Shown here: in pieces, positions 22,891-26,588 of the stretch
Layout of the letters: every line of letters starts with the position of its first letter
Numbering within the stretch: position 1 is the first letter of the stretch
From: Marivita sp.
GTDB lineage: Bacteria; Pseudomonadota; Alphaproteobacteria; Rhodobacterales; Rhodobacteraceae
Direction: 5' to 3'
DNA: 64,000 bases
Assembly: GCF_020055675.1 (NCBI RefSeq)
Contig: NZ_JAIPUS010000006.1
Span: forward strand, 1-64,000
Translations under genes and position numbers: made by a program
The notes under the pieces: model-generated
The model's database searches: none
What the model was told of the DNA's origin: nothing
What the model saw: only the letters and a program-made list of their open reading frames with translations

Positions 22891-22900
22891 GGATATTTCC
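22891..22900. repeat. Direct repeat at left element border (target-site duplication)
   Basis: GGATATTTCC immediately precedes the left terminal inverted repeat and recurs exactly at 26393-26402 after the right one. Because the ends are partly palindromic, the true duplication may be 8-10 bp; 8 bp is usual for IS1595-type transposases. Confidence 0.8.
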
Positions 22901-22923
22901 GGCCTTATGTATCAAGCGCACCA
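22901..22923 (+). repeat. Left terminal inverted repeat of the IS1595-type element
   Basis: It begins GGCCTTATGTATCAAGCGCA and runs three more bases (CCA). The reverse complement of 26370-26392 is identical except for A in place of G at repeat position 16. It contains the hexamer TGTATC, which also occurs in the promoter region of the transposase. Confidence 0.85.
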
Positions 22924-22966
22924 GCCGGAGGGCTGAGGCGTGATTAAGGTGCTGGTGTTCACGCTT

Positions 22967-23905
22967 TTACTGAACTGCTCCCAATCCATGTTGTTCCAAT
23001 TTGAGACGGTTTTGGGGGATGGCCTTAACCTTGGTAGACATGCCAAGCCCCATCCCACTTTCGGTATCAACCAAACTCATGGCTACATCAGTGAAGTGCT
23101 GGCTTTGAGGGTCTCCTGGGGTTTGATATCGCACGGAGCAAACGACGACAGGGGAGATCATTCCGCGTTCGAATCCCTCTCTGGATATTGGAATAGTAAT
23201 TTTCGCCCGGTGTCGGTGCGGTTCTTGAGGAAAAATGCGGTGCCCGAACCGACTGCGCTTCTGGCTGGCGATAAATGGGCGGGCGCGGGTCTCCTCCGAA
23301 ACGGTCATTTCCCTTTCAATCGCGGCAGTACTTGCGAAGTGCACATCCACAGCGATTGCAGGACTATGCCCATGGTTCACCAGAGTGGCGATAATTGCAA
23401 TTCTGCCCCCATCATCTTTGAAGGCCAAGTCCGATCCAACTTCCAGCTTCAGGGACAACCATGGGCGAGTTTGAGCAACGCCAAATTCTCTAGTGTCGAT
23501 AGCCATTCGCCGAGTGGCGATGAGAGTCCACCCCACAAACAGAACACCAACCAAGGTGATGCCAGCGATCCACAGCGTAGCTATGAACATCCCATAAGCC
23601 CACGCAGCCATGTCTTGCTGGGCCTTCAAGTCATATTGGGACTGCTTGTCTTCGCTATTGGCGGTTACGGATTTTACGACACACTCAAACCACGCAAAAA
23701 CTCCATCTTGGCTCAGGCTGGTCCGACAGAACTCTATGCCTTTGCTAGCTGCGCTTGTTTGGTTTTGGGCTACCTCACCGCGCTGGCTGGCGTGATCCTG
23801 CTGATATCTTGAGAAGCTATCATAAGAGTAGAACACCCCGATCCCGATCAATGCGAGTGCTGCTATTCCAAGTGTAGCTGCGATGATCCAACCGCTTTTA
23901 GACAT
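22967..23905 (-). CDS. Passenger gene: hypothetical protein with two membrane helices, 312 aa
   Basis: An N-terminal helix (SGWIIAATLGIAALALIGIGVFY) and a second helix near residues 107-130 (MFIATLWIAGITLVGVLFVGWTLIAT) bracket a 75-residue loop with two cysteines. A soluble C-terminal domain of about 180 residues follows (TRPWLSLKLEVGSDLAFKDDGG, IATLVNHGHSPAIAVDVHF), with the look of a beta-sandwich. I do not recognise a named family beyond this common bacterial architecture. The start lies 43 bases inside the DUF6471-like gene, so the two are probably co-expressed. It is at the left end of the mobile element and has no part in transposition that I can see. Confidence 0.75.
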   Translation of the reverse strand: MSKSGWIIAATLGIAALALIGIGVFYSYDSFSRYQQDHASQRGEVAQNQTSAASKGIEFCRTSLSQDGVFAWFECVVKSVTANSEDKQSQYDLKAQQDMAAWAYGMFIATLWIAGITLVGVLFVGWTLIATRRMAIDTREFGVAQTRPWLSLKLEVGSDLAFKDDGGRIAIIATLVNHGHSPAIAVDVHFASTAAIEREMTVSEETRARPFIASQKRSRFGHRIFPQEPHRHRAKITIPISREGFERGMISPVVVCSVRYQTPGDPQSQHFTDVAMSLVDTESGMGLGMSTKVKAIPQNRLKLEQHGLGAVQ

Positions 23906-24087
23906 GCCAACATAAACGCCGCTGAAAACTTCCCTCGGGACAGCTTGTTGCGGACGTTCACCTCTTTTTCACTGATTCCTATATCAGCAAGCCTTTCAAC
24001 AAGTTGAGCGTAAGTCACCCCTTTGCGCTTCAACTCGGCCTTGAGCAGCCCCGCTGCTTGCGCCTCCCAGTCTGTTTGCTCTGGCAT
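23863..24087 (-). CDS. DUF6471-like small protein, possible DNA-binding regulator
   Basis: The 74-aa sequence reads WEAQAAGLLKAELKRKGVTYAQLVERL then ISEKEVNVRNKLSRGKFSAAFMLACLKAVG. This is an all-helical pattern resembling a helix-turn-helix and the DUF6471 family, as I remember it. It is divergent from the IS1595-type transposase across a 103-bp gap that contains repeated TGTATC motifs, which would suit a regulator of transposase expression. The 43-bp overlap with the following two-TM gene implies one transcript. The family call is by eye and its function is not established. Confidence 0.72.
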   Translation of the reverse strand: MPEQTDWEAQAAGLLKAELKRKGVTYAQLVERLADIGISEKEVNVRNKLSRGKFSAAFMLACLKAVGSSQLHLE

Positions 24088-24132
24088 GTATCACCCATAT
24101 AAATAAAAGTACTGTTTTCATTACATAGGGTA

Positions 24133-24161
24133 TTGTATCCGATACGTCTAGGTACTATATT
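24133..24161 (+). promoter_or_regulatory. Transposase promoter with overlapping TGTATC operator-like sites
   Basis: TTGTAT, a 17-base spacer and TATATT form a good sigma70-type promoter 30 bases before the transposase ATG. TGTATCC-GATACG (24134-24146) is a near-palindrome overlapping the -35 box, and an inverted copy GGATACA lies at 24177-24183. The same TGTATC core occurs in both terminal repeats, so the transposase or the DUF6471-like protein might bind all of them. Confidence 0.55.
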
Positions 24162-24190
24162 CGTTACGTAAGCAATGGATACAGTACAAA

Positions 24191-25153
24191 ATGGCACAGC
24201 ACTTTCTTCTCTCAGCAGCGTCCCGCACCCTCAGCCTGCGTTCGATCTACAAGGCAGGCGAGGAAGCGGCCTACCAGACGTTCTGCGAAATGCGCTGGCC
24301 TGAGACCAATGGCGAAGCGGTTTGCCCGCGTTGCAGCCATGACGAAACGTACAAGATCACCACGCGGCGCAAGTTCAAGTGCAAGGCATGTGCGCACCAG
24401 TTCAGCGTCACATCCGGCACGATCTTTGCCAGCCGCAAGATGGACTTTGTGGACCTGCTGGCGGCGATCTGCATCATGGTCAACGCCTCCAAGGGCGTGA
24501 GCATGATCCAGCTTTCCCGCGATCTGGACTGCCAGTACAAGACAGCCTTTGTGTTGGCCCACAAGCTGCGCGAAGCGATGGCGCAAGAAGTTCAGACAGG
24601 CGTTGTGCTTGATGGTCACGTCGAAGTTGATGGCGCTTACTTCGGCGGTCACGTTCGCCCTGAAAACGCCAAGGCAGACCGTAAGGATCGTCGCTTGAAA
24701 GAGAACCGTTCTGATAAGCGCCGCGTCGTTGTCGCTATGCGCGAACGTCCGGGCCGCACACTGCCGTTTGTTACCCTCTCTGAGGGTGAAGGCGTGGCGC
24801 TGGTGAATGAGCACGTCAGCCGCATGGCGACTATCTCAGCTGACGAAGCAAGCCATTGGGACCTGCTACACGCGGGCTGGAACGTCGAGCGCGTGAACCA
24901 CAGCGAAATCTACAGCGACCACGGCAAGCACACCAACATGGCAGAAAGCTACTTCTCACGCCTCCGTCGCATGGTGGGCGGTCAGCACCACCACGTTAGC
25001 CCGCAGTACCTTCACCAGTACGCGAACCACGCGGCATGGATGGAAGACAACCGCCGCACCGACAACGGCACTCTGGCACACACGCTGGTCAGCAACGCGA
25101 TGGATGCACGGGTTAGCAGGACTTGGAAGGGCTACTGGCAGCGGGCGGCTTGA
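24191..25153 (+). CDS. IS1595-family transposase
   Basis: The 320-aa protein has an N-terminal four-cysteine zinc finger (CPRC...CKAC) and the ISXO2-like DDE domain with the signature VDGAYFGGHV. It ends in a region rich in histidines (GGQHHHVSPQYLHQYANHAAW). It is the only transposase inside the 23-bp inverted repeats and presumably moves the whole 3.5-kb unit. Length and motifs look intact, so the element may be active. No strong Shine-Dalgarno precedes the ATG. Confidence 0.93.
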   Translation: MAQHFLLSAASRTLSLRSIYKAGEEAAYQTFCEMRWPETNGEAVCPRCSHDETYKITTRRKFKCKACAHQFSVTSGTIFASRKMDFVDLLAAICIMVNASKGVSMIQLSRDLDCQYKTAFVLAHKLREAMAQEVQTGVVLDGHVEVDGAYFGGHVRPENAKADRKDRRLKENRSDKRRVVVAMRERPGRTLPFVTLSEGEGVALVNEHVSRMATISADEASHWDLLHAGWNVERVNHSEIYSDHGKHTNMAESYFSRLRRMVGGQHHHVSPQYLHQYANHAAWMEDNRRTDNGTLAHTLVSNAMDARVSRTWKGYWQRAA

Positions 25154-25155
25154 AG

Positions 25156-25169
25156 TTGACGGTGATCAA
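25156..25169 (+). promoter_or_regulatory. FNR-like box inside the mobile element
   Basis: TTGACGGTGATCAA matches TTGAY-N4-ATCAA, the FNR/FnrL consensus half-sites. It starts two bases after the transposase stop and about 100 bases before the two small membrane-protein genes. One such match is not far above chance for a window this size, so the call is weak. Confidence 0.3.
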
Positions 25170-25263
25170 TGCTGTAACACTTCTGGTAGCAATGGAGTGA
25201 ATTGTTGCAAATTGACACGGACGCGATAGAACTATTTGTTAGACAGTCTGGTGCATACGGCTT

Positions 25264-25452
25264 TTGGGGCTTCTTGCCTTCGTTTTCATAATTTGGGGGT
25301 TGCCACATATTCCCCCGATCGGGACCGCAGTTGGGACATTTTTGAACGATAGGCACAGAACAAACTTGGCGCACAAGCGTTCTATGCTTAAGTTACAGAA
25401 CAAGAAGAACCAAAACAAAGACGGCAAGAATGAAGGAGGGAAGGCACCGTGA
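25264..25452 (+). CDS. Passenger gene: small membrane protein, about 62 aa
   Basis: The frame opens with a hydrophobic stretch (LLAFVFIIWGLPHIPPIGTAVGTFL) and ends in a very basic, Asn/Lys-rich tail. The proposed TTG start is uncertain, because there is no ATG and only weak Shine-Dalgarno, while an in-frame stop lies 24 bases upstream. The strongest support is the four-base GTGA overlap between its stop and the start of the next gene, plus AAGGAGGG inside its end positioned for that next gene. No family recognised. Confidence 0.5.
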   Translation: MGLLAFVFIIWGLPHIPPIGTAVGTFLNDRHRTNLAHKRSMLKLQNKKNQNKDGKNEGGKAP

Positions 25453-25997
25453 CACAACTATCTTTTCTGACCTCAGTTGCTTTGCCGATAGTTCTAATCG
25501 CGCTGGTCTTCTCGCTTCCTTGGGTGCGAAAGAAACTAGACGTATGGGTAAAACACTCCCAAGAGCGATCAGAACTTATTGACGAATACCACGCTAACGC
25601 GATGATATTCTTGAAAAATACCGACCCTAACGCACACGCCGAACTTAGAGAAGTTGTCGTGTCGATGGGGGACGCCATGATGGATGGCGCGAAACTCATT
25701 CGGCTTGTCCTCTTTAGTAGGGCGCTCAATGGTCGCGCAGACGACACCGGCTCGGAAGCTGTGGCTGAGGGCGTTGCGGCGTTGAGCGACACTGCTCAAC
25801 ACGCGATGGCGCACGCTATGGGTTCCGCTCTTATCGTTTCTTCGCTAAACGCTGTATTTTTGGGTAGCTTTTACCGGTCGGCGCTAATGCTGGTGCTAAA
25901 AAGCCGCGAAGACCGTGAGCTGCGCGAACCTGCTCAAATTGTGTATCGCTACAGTAGGGCCGGACCGCGTTGGACCACCAAGCCTACGGCTTGCTAA
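25449..25997 (+). CDS. Passenger gene: membrane-anchored helical protein, 182 aa
   Basis: A GTG start follows AAGGAGGGAAGGCACC. Residues 5-24 form a membrane anchor (SFLTSVALPIVLIALVFSLP) and are followed by a positively charged helix. An all-helical middle comes next (ANAMIFLKNTDPNAHAELREVVVSMGDAMMDGAK). A second hydrophobic segment lies near residues 125-155 (MGSALIVSSLNAVFLGSFYRSALMLVL). I do not recognise it. The coupling to the preceding small membrane protein suggests that the two act together at the inner membrane. It is carried by the IS1595-type element, so its benefit may be to the element or the host. Confidence 0.65.
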   Translation: MTQLSFLTSVALPIVLIALVFSLPWVRKKLDVWVKHSQERSELIDEYHANAMIFLKNTDPNAHAELREVVVSMGDAMMDGAKLIRLVLFSRALNGRADDTGSEAVAEGVAALSDTAQHAMAHAMGSALIVSSLNAVFLGSFYRSALMLVLKSREDRELREPAQIVYRYSRAGPRWTTKPTAC

Positions 25998-26000
25998 GCC

Positions 26001-26333
26001 CTACGGGGCCAGCCTCCACACCCGCCCCTCACGCCGCACCACCCCACGCGCCTCTAGCCTCACAAGCGCCATATAGGCGCGCTGCACCGCGCTCTTGCGG
26101 GTAATACCTGGCACTGTCTCCTCTATGGCGTCAGCGATCTGTGAGGACGTACAGGGCAGCATAGACAGCGCCAGCCGCTTGCACCTGCCGCGAGACAATG
26201 GCCTGTCGTGCGTTCTGGCTGGCTTCTCGACGCCGCGCAGAGCCATCAGGGCTTCTACATGCTCAAGCCCTTCGCCCGCGCGATACAGCGCCAGCAGCGC
26301 GTTGTTGATGGTTCGATCCTGCATACCCCGCAT
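26001..26333 (-). CDS. Passenger gene: winged-helix-like protein, 110 aa
   Basis: The C-terminal half (SSQIADAIEETVPGITRKSAVQRAYMALVRLEARGVVRREGRVWRLA) has the pattern of a winged helix with a final basic wing, so DNA binding is likely. The N-terminal half is helical (TINNALLALYRAGEGLEHVEALMALRGV). The start may be the first ATG or the one three codons later; neither has a good ribosome site. It is convergent with the membrane-protein pair, three bases from its end, and is the last gene before the right terminal repeat. Confidence 0.6.
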   Translation of the reverse strand: MRGMQDRTINNALLALYRAGEGLEHVEALMALRGVEKPARTHDRPLSRGRCKRLALSMLPCTSSQIADAIEETVPGITRKSAVQRAYMALVRLEARGVVRREGRVWRLAP

Positions 26334-26369
26334 GATGATTCACACGGGGCAGAAGATCAGCTAGATTGT

Positions 26370-26392
26370 TGGTGCGTTTGATACATAAGGCC
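26370..26392 (-). repeat. Right terminal inverted repeat of the IS1595-type element
   Basis: On the plus strand it reads TGGTGCGTTTGATACATAAG plus GCC and is the inverted counterpart of 22901-22923 with one mismatch. Outside the 23 bp the two ends share no further inverted homology inward, which sets the repeat length. Confidence 0.85.
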
Positions 26393-26402
26393 GGATATTT
26401 CC
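26393..26402. repeat. Direct repeat at right element border (target-site duplication)
   Basis: GGATATTTCC, identical to 22891-22900, follows the right terminal repeat. It then continues into GGCAAGAAGAAAG, which is the expected right half of the interrupted host intergenic repeat. Confidence 0.8.
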
Positions 26403-26537
26403 GGCAAGAAGAAAGCCGGTAACGCGATCTTAACCAATCCGCGCCAGCCTGAAGGCGCGGTACAGGCGGGGACGCCGATGACCGCGCAAGGAGAAGGTCA
26501 CACCTTCTTTCAGGGGTGTCGGCACCTGCGGGCACCC

Positions 26538-26588
26538 CTTTCTTCTTGCTGAAAATATCCTGGGGGTTTGGGGGCAAAGCCCCCAAGG
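26538..26588 (-). repeat. Roseobacter-type intergenic repeat block, copy A
   Basis: On the minus strand the block has a GGGGGC-type stem-loop (GGGGGCTTTGCCCCC), then CCCCCAGGATATTTTCAGCAAGAAGAAAG. The same architecture is found at 28279-28339 and 40830-40900, and split around the mobile element. The block lies between the element and the DksA-like gene, and its GC-rich hairpin may act as a terminator. Confidence 0.6.

Follow-up and report, generated by a model that had tools for sequence, protein, structure and literature searches.

Between positions 22900 and 26393 of the window, by which we mean the whole stretch of 64,000 nucleotides of Marivita sp. DNA that was analysed, lies a complete transposon of the IS1595 family, 3494 bp in length (Table 1). 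An earlier note on this DNA had described an IS1595-type transporter element that carries passenger genes, and this description is borne out. The intact-looking transposase that it placed between the ends scores over the cut-off in three family models (PF12762, 131.7 bits with a cut-off of 27; PF12760, 53.3 with 25.4; NF033547, 145.2 with 75); its ISXO2-like/IS1595 DDE domain and N-terminal zinc ribbon place it in the IS1595 family.

Table 1. Features of the transposon and of its target site in the window
Feature	Position	Strand	Basis
Target duplication, left copy, 8 bp, GATATTTC	22892..22899	.	Base counts in relatives; empty site in four congeners
Terminal inverted repeat, left, 24 bp	22900..22923	+	
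Slot A cargo P1, two-TM protein of family c3, 312 aa	22967..23905	-	Homologues in 24/70 elements, alignment, modest-confidence model
DUF6471 protein, 74 aa	23863..24087	-	PF20075 106.5 bits, cut-off 26.8; 69/70 elements
IS1595 transposase, 320 aa	24191..25153	+	PF12762, PF12760 and NF033547 over cut-off; 70/70 elements
Slot B doubtful ORF, 62 aa, overlaps P5 start by 4 nt	25264..25452	+	No coding-score call
Slot B cargo P5, 182 aa, one predicted TM segment, orphan	25449..25997	+	Upstream GGAGG-type ribosome site
Winged-helix protein, 110 aa	26001..26333	-	67/70 elements, alignment, model pLDDT 90.4
Terminal inverted repeat, right, 24 bp	26370..26393	-	
Target duplication, right copy, 8 bp, GATATTTC	26394..26401	.	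Base counts in relatives; empty site

The bounded element seen earlier is real, but its borders lie one base further out on each side than the 22901-26392 first given. In the 69 relatives that have both ends, the left GGCC is bordered on its outer side by C in 68 cases and by T in one, and the right GGCC is bordered on its outer side by G in all 69. Because this outer C/G is kept in the relatives we count it as part of the element, and the inverted repeats, correctly described as having one mismatch but read as 23 bp, are therefore 24 bp long, with a target duplication of 8 bp. An exact direct repeat of 10 bp, GGATATTTCC, is present as had been stated; it was dropped as the target duplication, the extra of each copy being one element base that equals a target base by chance. 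The 8-bp duplication is exact at the window copy and in 61 of the 67 relatives with testable flanks, and in the other six it is off by one base (L091, L101) or by five or more (L040, L060, L064, L103).

Past insertion of the element is shown by uninterrupted flanks in four congeners. The joined flanks were compared with 16 same-genus loci. Four of these (L131, L132, L138, L144) align across the insertion point and contain GATATTT once, with the element absent; the remaining 12 match on either side, with a middle that is too diverged to align. The earlier note had proposed such a comparison of empty and filled sites, and had named two observations that would count against its reading, namely related genomes with these genes but no inverted repeats, and homologous flanks that hold the region without the 10-bp duplication. 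Neither turned up; the flanks of the four congeners run uninterrupted here. It had also proposed a search for the end pair in other genomes. The end pattern (19 nt, up to one mismatch) is found in 35 of 394 genomes of the family Rhodobacteraceae and the backward-read control columns printed for this search are 0, so that the ends occur more often than by chance.

A conserved backbone and two variable slots

Relatives were collected by a transposase scan with 185 confirmed stretches, from which the best 80 loci were kept. Both ends are present at 70 of these 80 (10 lacked one or both); L071 was dropped for its poor left end, and the resulting set of 70 elements consists of 69 relatives and the window element. 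By record title the best 80 of the 185 loci come mostly from Rhodobacteraceae, with exceptions such as those from MAGs that are labelled Flavobacteriaceae (L065), Phenylobacterium (L109), Hyphomicrobiales (L113) and Rhizobiaceae (L114). All 70 elements have the same ends and they span 2.3-4.6 kb, usually in the order left end, slot A, DUF6471 gene (minus strand), transposase gene (plus strand), slot B, winged-helix gene (minus strand), right end. We show here that the transposase (70/70), the DUF6471 protein (69/70 by tblastn) and the winged-helix protein (67/70) form a backbone of three genes, while the contents of the slots vary. The winged-helix cluster holds 68 proteins in 67 elements, two of them in L098, and is absent from L069, L093 and L102. 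The five passengers counted earlier are thus an overcount: the presence of the DUF6471 and winged-helix genes in nearly all elements rules them out as cargo, the 62-aa ORF is doubtful, and P1 and P5 are left. This arrangement of conserved genes and variable slots is invisible from one window alone.

Beyond the set, DUF6471 is found in 19 of 289 genomes of the class Alphaproteobacteria, at 22 places, and at 12 of these 22 loci, the window's included, the transposase is matched as well. Among 12 distant loci with longer flanks, five were delimited, six have no end pair and one has no transposase match. The five delimited elements have ends that begin with CGG and exact 8-bp duplications; L177 lies inside the family, and the four outside it (L173, L175, L176, L181) have ends of 24 bp. 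Reading of the translations, with no profile search, points to an M78-like gene in L173 and a Panacea-like gene in L181. Among 72,556 plasmid records, 14 contain a relative of the transposase with an E-value of 1e-60 or lower.

The two small backbone proteins resemble DNA-binding proteins. The sequence of the DUF6471 protein suggests an HTH-like protein, and the matches listed in the literature searched contain no mention of DUF6471. For its partner, the topology of the model and weak matches suggest a winged-helix protein: winged-helix regulators rank top in the fold search, where no E-value is below 0.09, and the best match of a PDB sequence search with the profile has an E of 0.12. This family is present in 11 of 120 family genomes, and 10 of these 11 also match element DNA. 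The gene in the window may start at 26324, the start used by most relatives.

Slot A holds family c3, to which P1 belongs, in 24 elements and family c4, which is mostly TM-free, in 11; another 29 elements have other families there, and in six no gene is called. TM segments are found in most of the rarer families by a crude hydropathy scan. P1 begins inside the DUF6471 gene with an overlap of 43 nt, and the called start of c3 genes lies at the same 43 nt in 16 of 23 elements and at 40 or 46 nt in six. A plus-strand ORF of 290 aa that covers P1 (22940-23812) matches eight elements compared to 14 for P1, with the window counted in both, and is not preferred. Family c3 is divergent, with a mean column identity of 21%, and M1, N177 and G179 are kept in all 23 aligned rows, L079 being left out of the alignment. 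The c3 model, of modest confidence (pLDDT 68.6), predicts two long helices and a beta-sandwich; fold matches are weak, with a query TM-score of at most 0.27 in the 50 rows listed, and hence no function is read from the model. A PDB sequence search with the c3 profile gave no match up to E 1, P1 has no match in phage records, and 0 families were matched by P1 in Pfam, PADLOC and PHROGs. With c3 in nine of 120 family genomes, seven of which also match element DNA, its distribution is close to element-specific.

Slot B varies in size from nothing up to 1470 nt. In L082 only 16 nt lie between the transposase and winged-helix genes, and in L060 the two overlap. P5 has no relatives in the 393 other genomes of the family and gives only sub-threshold matches to Pfam and NCBIfam. 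The neighbouring 62-aa ORF is considered doubtful because it lacks a coding-score call and because tblastn matches it in none of the 69 other elements.

Cargo families and their composition

In the whole set 144 cargo proteins were called, and 137 of them were scanned one by one against Pfam, PADLOC and PHROGs. Among these 137 are SocA/Panacea (7), M78/capP (6), BstA (5), HicA (2), HEC-09 (2) and RhuM (1). BstA is matched in L064 (3.1e-122) and, over the C-terminal half of the protein, in L072 (8.9e-16); Panacea in L065, L076 and L097; capP in L064; M78 in L090; DUF1902 in L038; HicA in L056 and a HicB-like protein in L058; RhuM in L055; HEC-09 in L106; PDC-M04A/DUF3800 in L102; and RelE, just over the cut-off, next to an HTH protein in L054. 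Toxin-antitoxin and abortive-infection genes recur across the element family. Counting single scans together with cluster mates, and leaving aside L069 and its cluster mate L075 with their weak PDC-S42 match, recognisable toxin-antitoxin, abortive-infection or candidate defence genes are found in 25 of 70 elements and are absent in 45; the cluster-mate totals agree with the counts by member. The cargo of the window element itself matches no defence or toxin-antitoxin family, and to place P1 and P5 among such genes is a guess by analogy with their relatives' cargo. Taken together, the element looks like a compact shuttle for toxin-antitoxin or anti-phage genes, and we infer from these family matches that cargo may have a role in defence.

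Alternatively, the element could be an IS1595 transporter of the usual kind, which picks up adjacent genes at random and whose passengers are neutral and transient. This would fit the orphan status of P5, the 20 of 70 elements in which no slot-B gene of at least 55 aa is called, and the odd cargo of L044 (an IS5-type transposase) and L053 (a ClpP-like protease). However, the cargo is confined to two fixed slots between conserved genes, and it is AT-rich and draws on few Pfam families: GC content is 0.51 in slot A and 0.50 in slot B, compared to 0.595 for the transposases and 0.624 for the flanks, and 137 cargo proteins match 43 Pfam families, whereas 135 length-matched flank proteins match 196. 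The 25 families listed for each control do not include Panacea, M78, capP or BstA, with single weak matches being possible there; PADLOC as such also matches the flank controls, with 58 families. Together with the recurrence of toxin-antitoxin and abortive-infection families and with c3 being nearly element-specific, this makes random capture quite improbable.

Somewhat less doubtful, but still not the reading that we favour, is that the cargo is an addiction device only, whose toxin-antitoxin pairs stop loss of the element and have no anti-phage role. Toxin-antitoxin-like cargo includes Panacea, HicAB, RelE/HTH and M78 accompanied by small TM partners, and toxin-antitoxin genes are passengers elsewhere, on Tn3-family transposons. 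A purely addictive function fits less well with BstA, which is filed as an abortive-infection protein in both PADLOC and PHROGs, and with the many slot-A genes that encode single membrane proteins with no visible partner.

Target sites, transposase relatedness and cargo

The target sites share a preference. TATTT or AAATA occurs in 31 of 62 exact duplications (the 61 of the relatives and that of the window) compared to 0.3% of 8-mers in the flanks, and 14 of 60 rejoined sites, the window's included, have a GCCTCCGGCGG-like sequence no more than 50 nt away. We read this as a probable bias of insertion towards terminator-like intergenic repeats. A stop-free frame runs through the insertion point at 31 of 58 sites; as a test for insertion inside genes this was discounted, since it carries little weight in GC-rich DNA. 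Other copies of the element sit at other sites, some of them common to several genomes.

Cargo shows little tie to the transposase. On the transposase tree the c3/not-c3 label needs 20 changes compared to a shuffle mean of 19.6, with 141 of 200 shuffles giving 20 changes or fewer, and c3 versus c4 needs 11 changes compared to 9.7, on a tree that is weakly resolved, with 30 of 67 inner branches open, which inflates scatter and favours the exchange result. In 221 pairs the transposases are at least 88% identical; the slot-A family is the same in 50 of these pairs, the slot-B family in four and both families in one. Where the slots of both members are filled, these close pairs have slot A in common in 50 of 185 cases and slot B in four of 150, compared to 233 of 1355 and 62 of 476 (slot A) and 13 of 832 and six of 243 (slot B) in the less alike pairs. 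These counts show no tie between slot B and the transposase; slot A has a slight tie, so that it is not fully free of the transposase, which speaks slightly against our preferred explanation.

Single pairs of elements are mosaics. L065 and L066 are 100% identical over the first 44 nt, 82% over the DUF6471-transposase block and 85% over the winged-helix gene and right end, with the slots unmatched, and the pairs L036/L037 and L035/L036 break in like manner. L095 and L105 occupy the same site, and for 4 kb to either side of it their flanks are 86-88% identical; the DNA of the two elements is 94% identical in the transposase block and 87% at the right end, and has no blastn match in the slots. 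The same-genus elements L035, L036 and L037 also lie at one site, L035 in inverted orientation, and the window's own genome retains a 765-bp relic there with the 8-bp duplication intact. Instead of exchange in place, the L095/L105 pair and the Marivita set could reflect separate insertions into a preferred site. Extended to the whole family, this would mean no exchange at all: different cargo would mark old separate lineages, and alike sites would be hit independently through target preference. The strength of that preference, the use of common sites in both orientations (L035 versus L036/L037) and a transposase block in L095/L105 that is closer than the flanks all agree with it, but separate lineages do not account for breaks within single pairs, where high identity stands on either side of unrelated slots, and the closely alike transposases with different cargo in one genus (window, L035, L036, L037) need a replacement at some time. 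We regard an absence of exchange as unlikely.

Our preferred explanation is that the element is a modular, cargo-exchanging, autonomous IS1595 transporter with a backbone of three genes and two cargo slots, to which we assign a probability of roughly 70%. The transposase would recognise the 24-bp ends and insert with an 8-bp duplication, preferably at TATTT tracts; the anatomy is observed, and the element is presumably active in transposition. The DUF6471 and winged-helix proteins probably regulate the transposase and the cargo. Cargo would be replaced over time, most likely when two elements undergo homologous recombination within their conserved stretches: the outermost 40-60 bp, the DUF6471-transposase block (about 1.25 kb), and the winged-helix gene together with the right end (about 0.4 kb); we infer this because identity breaks sharply at gene borders. 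Toxin-antitoxin, abortive-infection and candidate defence genes abound in the cargo across the family, as do membrane proteins that are seen chiefly with this element, and the cargo probably pays for the upkeep of the element through addiction or phage protection.

Consequences and comparison with known systems

If this explanation is true, the transposase and the fixed ends can serve as bait for new toxin-antitoxin or anti-phage genes, with everything between the backbone genes being a candidate. Cargo turnover in a small transposon would become measurable, as backbone and slots are comparable within one genus, and DUF6471 would appear to be a transposon-borne regulator. More tentatively, and at somewhat less than even odds, the elements may make up a class of very small immunity cassettes, self-mobile and spread across the Alphaproteobacteria, in which one transposase and two dedicated small regulators serve two docking slots that trade toxin-antitoxin and abortive-infection modules along with the element-specific c3 and c4, and in which TATTT terminator-like tracts are safe harbours. 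In that case the orphan cargo, P1 and P5 included, would be undiscovered defence genes.

The transposase family as such is already known, and in 2009 Siguier and colleagues reportedly described the insertion sequences of the IS1595 family, including forms that carry passengers. In the portions of the searched literature that were available, the matches listed contain no report of IS1595 elements with exchangeable toxin-antitoxin or defence cargo, nor of the two-slot modular plan with such cargo. The element agrees with the IS1595 family in its transposase domains, terminal inverted repeats, passenger genes and 8-bp target duplication, the norm in this family, but differs from the known forms by two small DNA-binding-like backbone genes and by passengers in two variable slots rich in toxin-antitoxin and abortive-infection genes. 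Tn3-family transposons likewise carry toxin-antitoxin pairs as passengers beside their transposition genes; here, in contrast, chemistry and ends are those of IS1595, no resolvase is seen, the size stays under 5 kb and the slot contents vary. Tn7-like elements, prophages and satellites are larger carriers that hold swappable defence cargo in fixed places. The IS1595 elements resemble them in this respect, yet they are far smaller, and they rely on one DDE transposase with no dedicated site-specific integration.

Contents of related elements

One of the protein families found in slot A, the variable cargo place next to the left end, is c4, whose conserved proteins are about 282 aa long; the family is present in 11 elements (the loci L052, L053 and L070 among them) and is encoded on either strand of the slot. 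The L052 protein, the sole c4 member scanned alone, had no match in Pfam or PADLOC. The element at locus L044 holds a fragment of an IS5-type transposase beyond its winged-helix gene.

Target sites and flanks

The right target flank of the window element is one arm of an inverted repeat, and sequence resembling window 26535-26586 is found in many family genomes; this repeat is terminator-like. The window's own genome also contains, on contig C1, an internally deleted sister-element relic of 765 bp, which keeps an intact 8-bp duplication (CTATTTGG) and lies at the same site that is occupied by the same-genus elements L035, L036 and L037. Matching duplications are absent from the elements L040, L103 and L060, whose right flanks start alike (GAAAT) and whose left flanks are unlike, a sequence pattern that possibly reflects rearrangement between elements.

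Coordinates of features at the window element and related loci
Feature	Location	Remark
Inverted repeat, first arm	window 26393-26415	23 nt
Inverted repeat, second arm	window 26538-26560	23 nt
Sister-element relic	L115 4249-5013	
IS5-type transposase fragment	L044 8609-9413	DUF4096 match

Viral contigs

Searching viral contigs with the transposase gave 19 pattern matches, 18 of them confirmed, and relatives are encoded at 17 loci in such contigs (L185-L201). Prophages may carry some of the elements.
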